Assembly (NCBI GenBank): GCA_028289605.1 | Contig: JANQON010000005.1 | Span: 62,001-126,000 of the forward strand | Reading direction: 5' to 3' | From: Hyphococcus sp. | GTDB lineage: Bacteria > Pseudomonadota > Alphaproteobacteria > Caulobacterales > Parvularculaceae | Length of the DNA: 64,000 nucleotides | In this document: piece by piece, positions 5,782 through 39,883 of the stretch | Layout of the letters: the number at the start of each line of letters is the position of its first letter | How positions within the stretch are numbered: the first letter of the stretch is position 1 | Made by a program: the position numbers and the translations under genes | The notes under the pieces: generated by a model | Told to the model about the DNA's origin: nothing | Databases searched by the model: none | What the model saw: only the letters and a program-made list of their open reading frames with translations

Positions 5782-7446
5782 ATGGTTGATTTGGCTAATG
5801 GGTCCGGATGCGCTATGGCGTTGCGCCTTATGACCGCGACAGGAGCGCGCCAGATCTTCAATTTTCTACGGTATCGCACCAGGCCGCTTGTTTTTTGGCC
5901 GCCCGTGGCGCTGCTTCTGTCAGCGCTCGCTTACTCCGTTTTCGATTTTGACGGGTTTCACGCCGCCGTGACGACGGCGAACGCCTGGTTGCTTACGCGT
6001 TTTGACTGGCTTTTCTCCCTGGCGTCATTCGCCGCCGTGGCGCTCATCATCTGGGTGGCGATTTCCCCGCTCGGCGCGGTGCGCATCGGCGGCCCCGACG
6101 CCAAACCCATCCTGTCGCGCTGGAACTGGTTCGCGATCACGCTATGCACCACGGTCGCTATCGGCATCCTGTTCTGGGGCGCGGCCGAACCGATGTTTCA
6201 TGTGCAGGATCCGCCGGGTTTTTCCGGCGCTGAGCCGGGAAGCCGTGAAGCGGCCCAGTTCGCAGTGTCGACGTTATTCATGCACTGGACCGTGACGCCC
6301 TACGCGCTCTATTCGGTGCCGGCGCTGGCCTTCGCCATTGCGCACTATAATCTTGGCCGGCCTTATTCACTGAGCGGACCTCTGTCCCTGGTTTTCGGTC
6401 GCGCGGCGACGGGCCGCGGCGGCGCGCTCCTCGACGCGGTTGGACTTTACGCGCTGGTCGCCGGCGTCGCTGCATCCCTCGGCGTGGGGGTCATGACGTT
6501 GGCGGGGGGACTGGACCGGCTAACGGGGCTGAATGACGGTGCGCCGCTGCGTTTTGCGGTGACCGCGATGATTGTTCTTGTTTTCGTCGCGTCTTCGATT
6601 ACGGGGATCCAGCGCGGCATCAAAATTTTGTCCGACATCAATGTAAAATTCTTCTTCGCGCTCGCCGTATTCATTCTTGTCGCGGGACCGACCCTTGAGA
6701 TTCTTTCGCTGGGCGCTGCATCGCTTCAGCGTTACGTTACCGAGTTCATACCCGCGAGCCTTGCGCTGGGCGATCGCGCCGGCAGCCCGTGGATGCGGGA
6801 CTGGACAGTCTTCTACTTTGCCAACTGGCTTGCCTGGGCGCCGATTACAGCGTTGTTCCTGGGTCGGATTTCGGTCGGATATACGGTCCGCGAATTCCTT
6901 TTGTTCAATCTCGTCGGGCCCGCGGCGTTCGGGGGGCTTTGGATGACGATCTTTGGCGGCGCCGCGATCAATATAGACAGCGCCACCGGCGGCGCCCTTG
7001 CCGCTGCGCTCAATGATCGCGGCCCCGACGCGGTCATCTATGCGCTGTTCGACGCTTTTCCCTTCGCCGCGTTGATTGCAGGCGCGTTCGTCGTGCTCAC
7101 CTTCATTTCGTTTGTCACGGCGATGGATTCCAACACTCACTCTATCGCCGCAGTGTGTCTTAAGCCGAGCTCTCGCGAGCAAGACAGCCGGGCTCAGTCA
7201 TTTTCGGTCAAAATATTTTGGGGCGTGCTTGTGGGCGCCGTCGCCTGGGTGATGACATCGACAACTGGCATCGACGGCGTGCGGATGTTGTCCAATCTCG
7301 GCGGCGCGCCCGGACTCCTCATTCTGATTTCCATGGGTGCGGCGCTCATCATCATGCGCGCGCGCTGGCTGGATGAAGTCATAGCTGCGCGCCAGCCGCC
7401 GCCGCCGCAACCCTCAACCGAAACGGAAACCGGGCAGCAGCGTTGA
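5782..7446 (+). CDS. BCCT-family transporter
   Basis: This ~550-residue polytopic membrane protein has the betaine/carnitine/choline transporter signature in its second half (WTVFYFANWLAWAP followed by GRISVGYTVREF). The TM1' segment reads VAIGILFWGAAEPM, keeping the WGAAEP part of the family but not a full glycine-rich GxGxG. The substrate-box region reads NWLAW, where BetP has WWMSW, so the first Trp is replaced by Asn and the substrate may not be glycine betaine. Start choice is uncertain: ATG 5782, 5815 and 5830 are all in frame and none has a strong ribosome site. Its last 33 bases overlap the 3' end of the convergent pxpC. Confidence 0.88.
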   Translation: MVDLANGSGCAMALRLMTATGARQIFNFLRYRTRPLVFWPPVALLLSALAYSVFDFDGFHAAVTTANAWLLTRFDWLFSLASFAAVALIIWVAISPLGAVRIGGPDAKPILSRWNWFAITLCTTVAIGILFWGAAEPMFHVQDPPGFSGAEPGSREAAQFAVSTLFMHWTVTPYALYSVPALAFAIAHYNLGRPYSLSGPLSLVFGRAATGRGGALLDAVGLYALVAGVAASLGVGVMTLAGGLDRLTGLNDGAPLRFAVTAMIVLVFVASSITGIQRGIKILSDINVKFFFALAVFILVAGPTLEILSLGAASLQRYVTEFIPASLALGDRAGSPWMRDWTVFYFANWLAWAPITALFLGRISVGYTVREFLLFNLVGPAAFGGLWMTIFGGAAINIDSATGGALAAALNDRGPDAVIYALFDAFPFAALIAGAFVVLTFISFVTAMDSNTHSIAAVCLKPSSREQDSRAQSFSVKIFWGVLVGAVAWVMTSTTGIDGVRMLSNLGGAPGLLILISMGAALIIMRARWLDEVIAARQPPPPQPSTETETGQQR

Positions 7447-9041: not shown

Positions 9042-9793
9042 TGAGGCTTGCGCGTAAAAGCGGCGACGGCGACGCTCGCTTCGGCGAGTGCGTCGCGCAC
9101 GGCGTTGGCCGTTTCAACGGCGCCGTCGGAGTCGCTGTGGATGCAAAGCGTATCCGCCGTCAGCGCGAGCGCTCCGCCGCTCGTTTCAATCGGACGCTTC
9201 AGAGCGATCGCCTGCGCCTGCGCCGCACGCGCCGCGATGCTCTCGATGACGGCGCCCGGTTCGTTGCGCGGCGTCAGCGATCCGTCGGCGCGATAGAGCC
9301 GGTCGACAAATCCTTCGGCGGCGAAGGGTTTTCCCGCACGCGCTGCAGCGCGCGCAAGCGCTGAGTTTGGCGGGCCGACTAAGATCGCGTCCGCGCACGC
9401 CTCCGCCACAATGTCGGCAAGGTCGTCGTCCTTGGCGGCGGCGTTGTAGAGGGCGCCGTGAGCTTTCACATGGGCGAGCGGCGCATGTTCGCAAAGCAGC
9501 ACGTCTTTCAAGTCATCGATCTGTGAGCGGAGGGACTGCAACAGCGCCGCATGGCTGATGTCCATAGGGCGGCGCCCAAACCCTTCGCGGTCCGGATAGG
9601 CGGGATGGGCGCCGACGCTGACGCTATGCGCCTTTGCAAGACGAACGGTGCGCAACATCGTGGCGGCGTCGCCCGCGTGGCCGCCGCAGGCGACCGAGCA
9701 TGAGGTTAAGAACGCCATCAAGTCCGCTTCGACCGTCGCCTGACGCTCGTCGGCGTATTCGCCCATATCCGCATTGAGATCGATGGTTTGCAT
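9038..9793 (-). CDS. pxpA: 5-oxoprolinase subunit PxpA (LamB/YcsF family)
   Basis: The 251-residue protein has the family landmarks LNADMGEY at the N-terminus, ACGGHAGD around residue 35 and GAHPAYPDREGFGRR around residue 62. PxpA opens the phosphorylated oxoproline ring in the PxpABC reaction. It starts 3 bases after the stop of the upstream Nramp-like gene and overlaps pxpB by 4 bases, so the four genes form one tight operon. The same association (ycsF, ycsG, kipI, kipA) is known from Bacillus subtilis. Confidence 0.94.
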   Translation of the reverse strand: MQTIDLNADMGEYADERQATVEADLMAFLTSCSVACGGHAGDAATMLRTVRLAKAHSVSVGAHPAYPDREGFGRRPMDISHAALLQSLRSQIDDLKDVLLCEHAPLAHVKAHGALYNAAAKDDDLADIVAEACADAILVGPPNSALARAAARAGKPFAAEGFVDRLYRADGSLTPRNEPGAVIESIAARAAQAQAIALKRPIETSGGALALTADTLCIHSDSDGAVETANAVRDALAEASVAVAAFTRKPQ

Positions 9794-9796
9794 GGC

Positions 9797-11011
9797 TCAC
9801 CAAACCCCCAACGCCCTCAGGATGGCGCGAAGGCCGAGGCCGGCCGTGATCACGACGACAACGCCGCCGGCGAGATTGGCGCGCCAGCCGTTTATATAAG
9901 CGCCGAGAATGGATTTGCGATTGGCCGTGAAAATGAGAAATCCGGCGATGATCGGCAACAGCAATCCGTTGGCGAACTGGGCGAACAAAATGATCTCGAC
10001 CGGCCGCGCCCCGGTAGCGGCCGCAGCGACGCCGATCAACACGACGGTCCCGGCGACCAGCCGAAAGGGCATTGTTTGCGGGTCGCTTTCGAAACCGAAC
10101 AGTTCGGCGGCGGCGAACCCTGTAGCCAGCGGCGCGGTGATCGCGGACGACAATCCGGCGGCGAACAGACCGACCGCAAGCAGCCATGTTGCGCCGGCGC
10201 CGAAGGCGGGCTCGAGCTGGCCGGCCATGTCTGCGGCGCTCGTGACGGTGAGGCCGGCGCCGAAAAGGCTCGCCGCCGCGGTCGACAAAACGAGCAGGGA
10301 CACAACGCCCCCGAGGCCGATGGAAAAGCGCGCGTCGAACTTGGCTTCGTCTATCTGTTCCGGCCCCGGCCAGCGCTTGCGCGCCGCGGCCGCGTGCAAA
10401 AAGAGGTTGTACGGAACAATCGTTGTGCCAATGAGGCCGATAGCGATGGGAAGCGCATCGAGCGTCAGCCGCGGTAGGGCGGCGCCGGCGGCGAGCGCGC
10501 CCCAGTCGGGCTTCACCACGATTAACGCCGCGGCGAAGGCGACAGTCATGACGAGAACAGCCCCGATCAGCGCCCGTTCAAGCAGCTTGTATCCGCCAAA
10601 CAGCAGAAAGCCCGCTGCGACGGCGCCAATGGCGACAGCGACCCCGGCGCGGGGCGCGTCCGGAAACGCCGCCTGAACGCCGAGGACAGCGCCGGCGATA
10701 TTGCCGCCTTCGTAAGCGGCGTTGCCGATAAACAGCGCGGCGACAATCAGCGCCACCGCGGCCCATCGAAACGCGGCGTTGCCGCCTGTCGCCGCCAGGA
10801 TCGCTTCTCCCAGGCCCATGCGTCCGGCGACGCCGAGGCGGGCGGCGGTTTCCTGCAGGACAATGGCCGCCAGCGTCGCGAAGACGAGCGTCCAGGCCAG
10901 CATATAGCCATAGGTCGCGCCGGCGACGGTTGCGGTGGTGACGGTGCCCGGGCCGATAAACGCCGCGGCGGCGAGTGCGCCGGGCCCGATCGCGCGCAGG
11001 CGCGTCAACAT
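9797..11011 (-). CDS. Nramp-family (YcsG-like) membrane transporter
   Basis: The 404-residue protein has about 11 membrane segments and belongs to the Nramp superfamily. In true Mn/Fe transporters TM1 carries DPGN and TM6 carries MPH, which bind the metal. Here TM1 reads G20-P-G-T23 and TM6 reads V199-P-Y201, so the Asp, Asn, Met and His ligands are all replaced. The gene opens the pxpABC operon, 3 bases before pxpA. The inference is that it imports an organic substrate tied to oxoproline, or a proton-coupled solute, not a divalent metal. Nramp relatives with altered motifs are known, so family membership is sure but the substrate is not. Confidence 0.85.
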   Translation of the reverse strand: MLTRLRAIGPGALAAAAFIGPGTVTTATVAGATYGYMLAWTLVFATLAAIVLQETAARLGVAGRMGLGEAILAATGGNAAFRWAAVALIVAALFIGNAAYEGGNIAGAVLGVQAAFPDAPRAGVAVAIGAVAAGFLLFGGYKLLERALIGAVLVMTVAFAAALIVVKPDWGALAAGAALPRLTLDALPIAIGLIGTTIVPYNLFLHAAAARKRWPGPEQIDEAKFDARFSIGLGGVVSLLVLSTAAASLFGAGLTVTSAADMAGQLEPAFGAGATWLLAVGLFAAGLSSAITAPLATGFAAAELFGFESDPQTMPFRLVAGTVVLIGVAAAATGARPVEIILFAQFANGLLLPIIAGFLIFTANRKSILGAYINGWRANLAGGVVVVITAGLGLRAILRALGVW

Positions 11012-36995: not shown

Positions 36996-37141
36996 GTCGC
37001 CTCGACCTTTTTTCTTTTGCGACGGGGATGATACGCCCGGTTTTTGTTGCAACGCAACATCACCGTGTTGTTGCGGGACTTTTCCAGGACCCCCGTGCTA
37101 GGGAGCGCCCCAATCAAGCGCAAAAAAAGGAGAATTCGGCG

Positions 37142-37909
37142 ATGATCAAAAACCTGTTCACCCGCGGATCCGGCCATGCCGACGACGGCGCGCGCGTCCG
37201 CTATGACGATCTCTCAGCGTTGTTCGTCAACTGCACCCTGAAAAAGTCTCCGGAAGTCTCCCATACCGATACCCTGATGGACGTCAGCCGGGCGATCATG
37301 AGGGACGCAGGCGTTACGGTCGACAGCGTCCGGCTGGTCGATCACGCCGTCGCGGCCGGGGTTTATCCGGACATGCGCGAACATGGCTGGGACAATGACG
37401 ATTGGCCGGCGATCTGGCCCAAAGTGCGGAGCGCCGACATTCTCGTCGTCGGCACGCCCATCTGGCTCGGCCAGCATGCTTCAGAATGCACTAAACTGAT
37501 CGAGCGGCTCTACGCCCATTCCGGGGAAGAAAACGACAAGGGCCAGTACATCTATTACGGCAAGACCGCCGGCTGCGTGATTACGGGCAATGAGGACGGG
37601 GTCAAGCATGTCGCCATGAGCGTCCTCTATTCGCTGCAGCATGTGGGCTATGCGGTCCCGCCCCAGGCCGACTGCGGATGGATCGGAGAGGCGGGACCCG
37701 GACCGTCCTACGGTGATGAAAAGGAAGGCGGCGGCCGCGTTGGGTTTGATAATGACTTTACGAACCGCAACACGACCTTCATGACGTGGAACCTGATCCA
37801 CACCGCGCGGATGCTGAAAGATCATGGCGGCCTTCCCGCCCATGGCAACGTCAAGGCTGACTGGAAGGACGCTTTTGCGCCGGGCAGTCCGAACCCTGAA
37901 TATCGCTAG
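37142..37909 (+). CDS. Flavodoxin-family NAD(P)H-dependent FMN oxidoreductase
   Basis: This 255-residue flavodoxin-like protein starts at ATG 37142 with AAGGAG 9 bases upstream. Visible landmarks are the N-terminal strand SALFVNCTLKKSPEVSHT and the flavin-loop region ILVVGTPIWLGQHASECT. Its exact substrate is unknown. It is divergent from hbd and its last 4 bases overlap the convergent DUF1203 gene. Confidence 0.82.
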   Translation: MIKNLFTRGSGHADDGARVRYDDLSALFVNCTLKKSPEVSHTDTLMDVSRAIMRDAGVTVDSVRLVDHAVAAGVYPDMREHGWDNDDWPAIWPKVRSADILVVGTPIWLGQHASECTKLIERLYAHSGEENDKGQYIYYGKTAGCVITGNEDGVKHVAMSVLYSLQHVGYAVPPQADCGWIGEAGPGPSYGDEKEGGGRVGFDNDFTNRNTTFMTWNLIHTARMLKDHGGLPAHGNVKADWKDAFAPGSPNPEYR

Positions 37910-38388: not shown

Positions 38389-38492
38389 GAAGGTTGCTCC
38401 TTAACTGCTGGAGCGAGGATGGTGCGGCGAACGATGGAAGGCGACCCGGTTCTTGCGGGGGGTAACTGTAAACGCTCTGAGTCGGCAATTAC

Positions 38493-38521
38493 TTGACTTT
38501 TACTTACACCTGTGTTATGTT
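38493..38521 (+). promoter_or_regulatory. Near-consensus sigma-70 promoter for the AIPR gene
   Basis: TTGACT at 38493-38498 and TATGTT at 38516-38521 are separated by 17 bases. The predicted start near 38528 gives a ~70-base leader before an AAGGAG site and ATG 38600. Such an E. coli-like promoter stands out in this high-G+C neighbourhood. Confidence 0.7.
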
Positions 38522-38599
38522 TTTTACATCGACTGTGCTCGGTCGCGGCAGGTGCCGCGTGCCGATTGTCGCCAGCGATGAAGAAAAAAGGAGCCAGAA

Positions 38600-39796
38600 A
38601 TGGCTAAAGACACGCACGTAAACGATTCTGATATCGTTAAAATACACTACCATACAATTCGAAATTTGACGTCGCCTGAAGAAAAAGAAAACGGCGTCCA
38701 AACGCATTTTGCGAACGTTCGAGCTGAAAATGTTCTTCAGCTCAGTACGCGAGATAATCTGAGGTCGTACATCGCCGAACACAATCCGAAGAAGCGAAAT
38801 AAGGTTCATCAGGCAATTGAACGAACAATAGTTGAGTATCCCGACAGGTTTATTAATCGCAATTCTGGGCTCACCGTTACATGTTCGAAAATCCAAGTCG
38901 ATGACAACAGCAAAGTTGCACGCTTAACAGACGCAAGCATCATTAATGGCGCGCAAACCCAAGGCGAAATCAAACGTGTTTTCGACGAGCTCCAAGAATA
39001 CGAAGAGGATAGTGGGGATCTGGGATTTCATGTACGCCTAGAAATCAATGTCGATCCGGATCATCAGTCGGTTGTTGAAACTGCGATAGCAAGAAATACA
39101 GCCACTACAGTTACGAATATTTCTCAGGCCGGTGCTCGCGGTCATCTGGATGACCTTAAGAAGGCATTGGAAAAGGCGCGTCCAGATACGACAATCAGGG
39201 TTTCAGAAACTGATCAAGGTGTCTTGGAGACCAAGGAAATCTTACAATATGCTCGGCTACTTATGCCGGAATCATTGTTAGGTGAAAAATCTGCCTCGGA
39301 AAAATACCGTGTGCACAAATATAGCGGACAGGTACTAGCCGATTTTTCAGAGTGGTATGAGAACCAAAACCTAGATGAGAAAGCGCGGGAAAAGTATGAG
39401 TTTACCGTTGCTATCGCGTCTCAAGCGCTCGACGAATACGAATACTGGCGCTCACATGAGGGTTGGAACGGAAACAGGCTACACGAAAAACCTAAAAAGG
39501 GTGGTCGCCCTGTACGCCGCGACAAAAAAAGTGGAAAAATTACCTGGGTGGCACCTGGAATTTTGTTCCCACTATTCGGTGCTCTAAGTGCCTTTGTCCG
39601 AAAAGACTCTAAAAATGGTTGGATAATCGATAAGCCATCAATTTTCGATGAAAAGGAGCTAATCAAGCGTGCTGTAAATCAATTTCGCGCTCTAGATCGC
39701 GATGTGTCGCTTATGGGAAGAAGTGAAGCAGCATACGATGCTCTAAGCATATACCCTGAAACGATAATCAAGGTTATGCAGTCGGCAAAAGAATAA
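38600..39796 (+). CDS. AIPR-family protein, possible phage-defence gene
   Basis: The 398-residue protein has the AIPR (abortive infection phage resistance) core: NVRAENVLQL (residues 39-48), YPDRFINRNSGLTV (80-93) and DASIINGAQTQGEI (111-124). Known AIPR proteins usually carry about 200 further residues before this core, so this is a short version. The later part is basic and helical, with no obvious second domain. The gene is clearly more A+T-rich by eye than its neighbours, uses rarer codons, has its own promoter and ends in a hairpin. It sits between etfA and hbd, which are usually adjacent, so recent acquisition is likely. AIPR proteins are tied to phage resistance, but a direct mechanism is not established here. 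Confidence 0.75.
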   Translation: MAKDTHVNDSDIVKIHYHTIRNLTSPEEKENGVQTHFANVRAENVLQLSTRDNLRSYIAEHNPKKRNKVHQAIERTIVEYPDRFINRNSGLTVTCSKIQVDDNSKVARLTDASIINGAQTQGEIKRVFDELQEYEEDSGDLGFHVRLEINVDPDHQSVVETAIARNTATTVTNISQAGARGHLDDLKKALEKARPDTTIRVSETDQGVLETKEILQYARLLMPESLLGEKSASEKYRVHKYSGQVLADFSEWYENQNLDEKAREKYEFTVAIASQALDEYEYWRSHEGWNGNRLHEKPKKGGRPVRRDKKSGKITWVAPGILFPLFGALSAFVRKDSKNGWIIDKPSIFDEKELIKRAVNQFRALDRDVSLMGRSEAAYDALSIYPETIIKVMQSAKE

Positions 39797-39817
39797 ACTA
39801 TAACCGGCTAACGATCG

Positions 39818-39850
39818 AAACGCCGCTTGCTCTTCAAGCAAGCGGCGTTT
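39818..39850. terminator. Hairpin between convergent AIPR and etfA genes
   Basis: A 13-bp perfect stem (AAACGCCGCTTGC at 39818-39830 with GCAAGCGGCGTTT at 39838-39850) has a 7-base loop. T runs are short, so it is a moderate bidirectional terminator. Confidence 0.6.
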
Positions 39851-39883
39851 CTACAAGCCGAGTTCCTGCCAATACCTCTGTTC

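Follow-up and report, generated by a model that had tools for sequence, protein, structure and literature searches.

A conserved structured leader RNA ahead of short AIPR genes suggests a possible one-gene RNA-protein module

Abortive-infection-type genes that follow a conserved structured RNA have a described precedent. In the part of the AbiF report at hand (PMC12373285), an RNA with abiF motifs precedes, restrains and binds the toxic AbiF protein, and such genes are placed in phage lysis regions. The type III toxin-antitoxins (ToxIN, CptIN, TenpIN) are likewise laterally spreading modules of a small RNA and a protein gene, with the RNA first. For the AIPR/AbiU/MzaE proteins (PF10592), N-terminal domains have been described; as far as the sections at hand go, the AIPR protein of PMC9708380 is a PoNe nuclease joined to AIPR, and PMC3506569 reports an N-terminal HEPN domain in AIPR-family proteins. 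A literature search, with most subscription journals beyond its scope, returned no structured RNA linked to AIPR. The gene described here lies in a 64,000-nucleotide stretch of a Hyphococcus genome (the window), and by the shared arrangement of RNA and gene, AbiF would be its nearest analogue in print.

A first-pass annotation had read the gene as a one-gene phage-defense islet, a reading that as a whole is partly supported. The 398-residue open reading frame and its AIPR core are confirmed; the motifs NVRAENVLQL, NRNSGLTV and IINGAQTQ are all found, and the Pfam AIPR profile (PF10592) matches residues 53–191 with an E value of 6.8e-14 and 52.7 bits against a cutoff of 25, over profile positions 4–137 of 308 only. 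AIPR is the sole Pfam family above cutoff in the protein, and the absence of Abi_2 sets it apart from AbiF. The PADLOC AbiU model matches in part rather than over its whole length (31 bits, profile positions 232–349 of 537 only), the score with the MzaE equivalog is 16.2 bits against a cutoff of 1050, and PHROGs assigns the protein to an "Abi alpha-like" family. A PDB sequence search gave nothing useful, and no nuclease or RNase domain was recognized by the Pfam, PADLOC, PHROGs and PDB sequence searches. The host genome has no AIPR match besides this gene. The N-terminal region had been noted as missing, and indeed the core begins near residue 34–53 with neither the AIPR_N nor the nuclease-like domain of the long proteins ahead of it, whereas L003 and L004, long AIPR proteins from this genus, carry AIPR_N, a separate Pfam domain, at this end.

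Table 1. Features of the short AIPR locus, in window coordinates
Feature	Position	Strand	Basis and remarks
Acquired single-gene islet	38458..39860	.	In other genomes of the genus the etfA-DUF1203 interval is empty or holds other sequence; A+T-rich; right edge approximate
Sigma-70-type promoter TTGACT-N17-TATGTT (predicted)	38493..38521	+	Promoter scans; 9/12 consensus bases, TG before second hexamer
Conserved leader RNA, predicted 5'-terminal	38528..38579	+	P1a-bulge-P1b-internal loop-P2-bulge-P3-AGGU loop closed by C-G; covariance models, pair statistics, folding; misses strict free-fold form
AAGGAG ribosome-binding site	38588..38593	+	Sequence; inside 20-nt hairpin-AUG spacer of conserved length
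Short AIPR protein gene	38600..39796	+	398 aa, ATG start; ORF translation, profile and family comparisons
Stable 15-bp hairpin between AIPR gene and convergent etfA	39817..39851	.	-27.8 kcal/mol, z -8.3

The short form is not peculiar to the window. A homologue search returned 760 proteins at E ≤ 0.001; of these, 119 were listed in addition to the query, all of 375–425 residues, and the family length among them is mostly 380–405. At least three full-length homologous clades can be told apart: A, to which the window protein belongs; B, for which 1276 proteins pass among 8000 candidates scored with a Tritonibacter query (L051), some of them perhaps from outside the clade; and C, with 98 proteins including the query, which comes from phage contig L019. 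By hhalign, clade A can be aligned to B and to C along almost all of its length (Prob 100 in both cases), while the short family aligns with five long AIPR proteins over residues 34–158 only (Prob 97.4). The kinship with AIPR/AbiU/MzaE thus lies in this core, and the short family differs in having a C-terminal half of its own, not common to the long proteins, a structured leader and, in the window, no restriction-modification partner alongside. Twenty residues, among them N53, R55, H70, F84, G90, S113, N116, G117, Q119 and N166, do not vary in the 28 members compared, 22 of which match the PADLOC AbiU model, and the gene is the sole AIPR match in 13 of 14 records (that of L019 included). By these comparisons the short AIPR proteins are a true subfamily, often solitary, as had been surmised. 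We dropped a HEPN RNase reading, as H286, invariant in clade A, is not shared by most clade-C members. A link to DndB/DGQHR (PF14072) is unsupported as well; the portion of PMC3506569 at hand counts the N-terminus of DndB among the AbiU1/AIPR proteins, but hhalign against nine PF14072 proteins gave Prob 6.

The gene stands out from its surroundings, as had been claimed. Its G+C content of 0.446 and third-position G+C of 0.414 are both the lowest of 52 window ORFs (non-overlapping, at least 150 residues, chosen by a simple script, so that some may not be genes), the next-lowest G+C being 0.551 and the medians 0.627 and 0.730 at third positions. Neither is it fixed in the genus. It is absent from all 27 other same-genus genomes (completeness 76–100%), and among 60 kin genomes (G000 included) G009 alone matched besides its own, weakly and at two places, both of them long AIPR frames. 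Samples of the class and the phylum gave one match in 385 genomes, its own, and two in 398, the second at 35% identity. The two outcomes that the first-pass annotation had named as counting against it, no AIPR profile match and a fixed gene of native composition, were therefore both absent.

The site itself was read in other genomes through the neighboring etfA, which is convergent to the AIPR gene, at 27 loci besides its own, of which 24 offer 1.5 kb of sequence past etfA. None of the 27 has the AIPR gene there. DUF1203 is visible behind etfA in 12 of them, starting ~125–245 bp off in eight; in L046 it matches by its C-terminal part only, close to etfA, and in L032, L039 and L040 the gap is occupied by 0.8–1.3 kb of other sequence. 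The corresponding gap in the window is 1495 bp, and the left edge of the islet directly follows the genus-conserved TTCTTGCG at 38450–38457. The etfA-DUF1203 interval is a small variable spot of the genus, and the gene was, by this comparison, gained laterally and recently within the genus as a single gene. Some observations on the interval stand apart from this. Other small ORFs lie in it in L032 (2430–3244), L039 (241–1501, TetR-like by eye) and L040 (384–1501). An FMN-reductase-like gene (37028–37909) separates DUF1203 from hbd in the window; the two adjoin in several same-genus genomes, and this gene is possibly a second small insertion. A CGACCCGGTTCTTGCG-like stretch conserved upstream of DUF1203 in the genus (window 38442–38457, L026–L046) is possibly a promoter or leader element of DUF1203.

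The neighbors by Pfam are hbd, the FMN-reductase-like gene, DUF1203 and etfA/etfB, with no restriction-modification genes immediately beside the AIPR gene. Its solitary standing, free of other defense genes, accordingly holds for the immediate neighborhood in the window but not for some relatives, which lie near an MT-A70 or D12 methyltransferase. Outside the window, clade A is represented by 13 distinct loci, which belong to Pseudomonadota, Acidobacteria, Planctomycetota, one actinomycete or a virus contig, and in all 13 the G+C content of the gene is below that of the locus. Neighbors, examined in part (19 proteins and 10 proteins), are in many cases housekeeping genes (ettA, aspS, serA-like, FTCD, carboxyl transferase). 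Phage genes occur as well, namely terminase (L007, L100), integrase (L017, L102) and a holin next to L019, the last recalling the phage lysis regions described for AbiF in the same part of PMC12373285. Possible conflict-system neighbors are MT-A70 (L007, L016), AAA proteins (L016), Fic (L009), CHAT (L008) and ORF6N (L013). An MT-A70 adenine methyltransferase gene adjoins the short AIPR gene in two unrelated loci (L007 7138–7788, L016 4873–5823), a D12 adenine methyltransferase gene is found near L102, and these MT-A70/D12 cases are in phage-like loci.

Three short AIPR genes lie behind ettA, directly in L006 and L014 and ~0.2 kb off in L015. Methylocystis sp. B8 provides a second case of an acquired islet: its gene is behind ettA, and none of 29 other same-genus genomes has it within 1.5 kb behind ettA (30 of 38 ettA loci read, B8 included). 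In Silicimonas (L015, region 9690–9850) an intact ettA, with its end at 9701, is followed just before the AIPR promoter by another stretch that encodes the same last 12 residues, EPKRLKYKKFTR, and the stop in other codons. To judge by this repeat, it looks as if the L015 islet had arrived with the tail of the donor's ettA. These loci suggest that ettA is a recurrent landing site, or that the gene travels along with an ettA tail (L006, L014, L015). Two copies depart from the rest: Knoellia L016 has an in-frame TAG at codon 10 after leader and ATG (5942–5971), and is either decayed or translated from a later start, and in L013 (4714–4807) the leader and the first ~38 codons are missing, with a non-homologous start in their place.

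The upstream sequences of these loci are alike in shape and unlike in letters. From 5' to 3', the plan consists of P1a (~4 bp), one bulged base, P1b (5), a 2 × 5 internal loop, P2 (4), a single 3'-side bulge, P3 (6) and a four-base loop, mostly AGNN, whose closing C-G pair is invariant in 13 leaders. Of the 14 clade-A loci, the window counted, all but L013 have this fold ahead of the gene. A scan for the 15-pair plan with 18 loop-size variants found perfect 15/15 matches in the 160-nt leader of 12 of 17 loci and five matches elsewhere on both strands of 323.7 kb, though the scan is partly circular, plan and loop sizes having been derived from the same leaders; L011 and L019 reach 14/15, L013 gives none, and the clade-B loci L051 and L022 fall outside these loop sizes. 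Under the single commonest geometry, 15/15 pairs form in eight of 15 leaders (p 0.0005 each) and 13 in that of the window (p 0.036), whereas the other six fall short of significance. The remaining tests (scoring of unseen leaders, covariation, promoter distance, AUG spacing, free folding) are less circular, with the reservation that the 13-leader alignment was fitted to the structure.

When 13 clade-A leaders are aligned by covariance model, the paired fraction of cells is 96.8%, against 61.6% when shuffled. Two-sided changes are seen in 17 of 19 pairs, as they are in a 10-leader alignment, and 89 such cells compare with 27.3 ± 3.9 in shuffled alignments, none of 500 shuffles being as high. 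This alignment excludes L013 and L019 (below threshold). Two others were set aside: one at E ≤ 1, which had picked up a spurious antisense piece of L081, and, for the counts, a plain MAFFT alignment of 14 leaders, which did not follow the structure. The model was built stepwise, and structure-fitted alignments lean toward the structure they were fitted to. A first model, R1, made from five leaders of alphaproteobacterial or unclassified proteobacterial origin, proved too narrow, missing the window's own leader in longer sequence. Its successor, R2, recognized three of five unseen leaders (L008, L011, L012) at 26.7–29.1 bits, with E ≤ 8e-6 in 2 kb, while L019 scored 8.3 bits (E 0.53) and L013 gave no score. 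When the pairing partners are slid by 1–3 columns, the covariation score is 0.067–0.215 versus 0.989 unmoved; this control and the three unseen leaders argue against structure fitting as the cause of the covariation.

Unconstrained folding adds to this. The plan appears in 12 of 20 leaders versus two of 6000 shuffles, and the full plan with the P1 bulge in 10 of 20 versus none of 6000. The strict form is failed by the window, whose free fold pairs slightly off the consensus, and by L007, L009, L015, L017, L100, L102 and L013. Three of five clade-B leaders pass (L051, L085, L101), L100 and L102 forming similar but not identical hairpins, and clade C is represented by one locus only, L019, which passes. 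(L018 duplicates L007 and was dropped; L022 and L101 share a clade-B gene and leader, and L101 alone was counted for spacing and folding.) The stability of single leaders is mostly unremarkable, with z from +0.3 to -3.6 in ten leaders, the L016 stretch having missed its hairpin. Taken together, the leader is a conserved structured RNA whose fold is kept while its sequence diverges. It belongs to the compact transferable unit, which had been described as promoter and gene; the single-gene transfer implied by that description stands.

The leader also keeps to its gene. Whole-genome searches with R2 succeeded in 10 of 15 records, every one a training member, each with a single strong match that lies ahead of the AIPR gene. 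L008, L011 and L012, the unseen leaders that R2 recognizes, were found only in short leader stretches, and their scores are just above the highest other whole-genome score, 25.9 bits. In the 27 same-genus genomes without the gene the best score is 23.3 bits, compared with 46.3 bits in the window. No leader match precedes the long AIPR genes L003, L004, L021 and L054, where the best chance score, 15.7 bits, lies inside the L004 gene (L020 starts at a contig end and was left out of this comparison). Searches of Rfam with the window region and 14 leader stretches gave no meaningful match, and none to the abiF RNA (RF03085). A structured 5' leader adjoining a ribosome-binding site might in principle be a riboswitch for a metabolite or signal, or a thermometer. 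This is extremely unlikely in our estimation, considering that the loop sequences, the internal loop included, are not kept across the family as a ligand pocket would demand, and that Rfam is silent. Since the gene has been gained as one unit at different places, the fold might instead act in the DNA, as an operator or a folded single-stranded attC-like recombination site that moves the cassette. We regard this as very improbable: G-U pairs are common among the kept pairs, the hairpin sits ~70 nt inside the left edge and within the predicted transcript, and no exact 7–12 base repeat is common to both islet edges. An attC-like or insertion-sequence-like end was ranked low for the same position, well within the islet and behind the promoter.

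A near-consensus promoter had been claimed. The two hexamers are there, but the match is incomplete (Table 1), and as a region this large would hold 2.0 equally good sites by chance, the window promoter proves nothing on its own. Across the family, 15 of the 16 loci scanned (80-nt search; exception L016) have their best sigma-70-like promoter ending 5–9 nt ahead of the first pair of the hairpin, with the proviso that some -10 boxes are poor (e.g., L006) and that L100–L102 were outside the scan. The predicted mRNA would therefore begin with the hairpin. Hairpins at an mRNA 5' end can guard against 5'-dependent decay, and a hairpin beginning at the predicted +1 could be a mere mRNA stabilizer or translation enhancer with no protein partner. 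We find this quite unlikely, as distant relatives within one gene family retain the inner plan of bulge, asymmetric loop and bulge, which would be needless for such a role. The distance from hairpin to AUG is 17–26 nt in 18 of 19 loci (median 20), L102 having 10; the value for L051, 17 nt, is taken from the homology-supported start at 6010 rather than from the earlier ATG chosen by the script. The AAGGAG site is present as annotated and is not buried in the leader fold, so that repression would need a bound factor. At the other end of the gene, the hairpin that had been noted after the stop is confirmed. It lacks a strong T run and was not flagged by a T-run terminator scan; it is a possible two-way terminator.

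The main rival is a system of type III kind, in which the hairpin would be cut from the mRNA to serve as a trans-acting RNA antitoxin against a toxic AIPR protein. An RNA directly before a protein gene, a fold kept despite sequence divergence and the carriage of short AIPR genes on phages would all suit it, as does the account, in the part of PMC12373285 at hand, that AbiF works with the RNA preceding it and copurifies with that RNA. The tandem repeats and the terminator that stand before a type III toxin gene were, however, not seen: a single hairpin with one strong match per genome is found in 10 of 15 records, and the window has no T run between RNA and gene. Moreover, no nuclease domain was found, and a near-constant hairpin-AUG spacing fits action in cis. 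We thus consider it unlikely. The arrangement also differs from that of AbiF, the RNA here being a single leader at the 5' end of the same predicted transcript.

A kept shape with free sequence, a near-fixed distance to the AUG and a tie to one protein family resemble a protein-bound translational operator and suggest that protein and leader RNA act as a pair. At roughly even odds (about 0.5), we favor a one-gene RNA-protein module: by binding the leader of its own mRNA, the short AIPR protein would restrain its synthesis or activity. Against this reading counts the unconserved sequence of the internal loop across the family, which leaves a protein no evident letters to recognize. The sequence comparisons show a structured and covarying RNA that goes with the short AIPR gene, the spacing of this RNA from promoter and AUG, and the lateral gain as a single gene. 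Transcription would begin at the base of the ~51-nt hairpin, giving an mRNA headed by it, with its 3' end ~20 nt before the AUG, at the border of the ribosome landing zone. The short AIPR protein most likely would recognize the shape of the hairpin and so repress its own translation, and the hairpin perhaps also keeps the protein inactive. A disturbance, for example phage takeover of transcription or RNA decay, might then lift the restraint and let an abortive-infection-type effector act. The start of transcription, the binding, the repression, the toxicity and the phage defense are what we infer, the last from the family name, the phage carriage and the analogues AbiF and type III toxin-antitoxins. 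A broader proposal, that short AIPR genes are RNA-gated one-gene immune modules whose own protein binds the hairpin, the pair having co-evolved across several phyla and phages, with loss of this contact in infection as the trigger, is offered tentatively, at less than even odds.

With promoter, leader, gene and terminator within ~1.4 kb, binding, repression, toxicity and phage protection are directly testable. For the "abortive infection phage resistance" family, the leader is a concrete candidate for a working part, an RNA element. If the pairing is true, further abortive-infection proteins would be tied to structured RNA, after AbiF and the type III systems.
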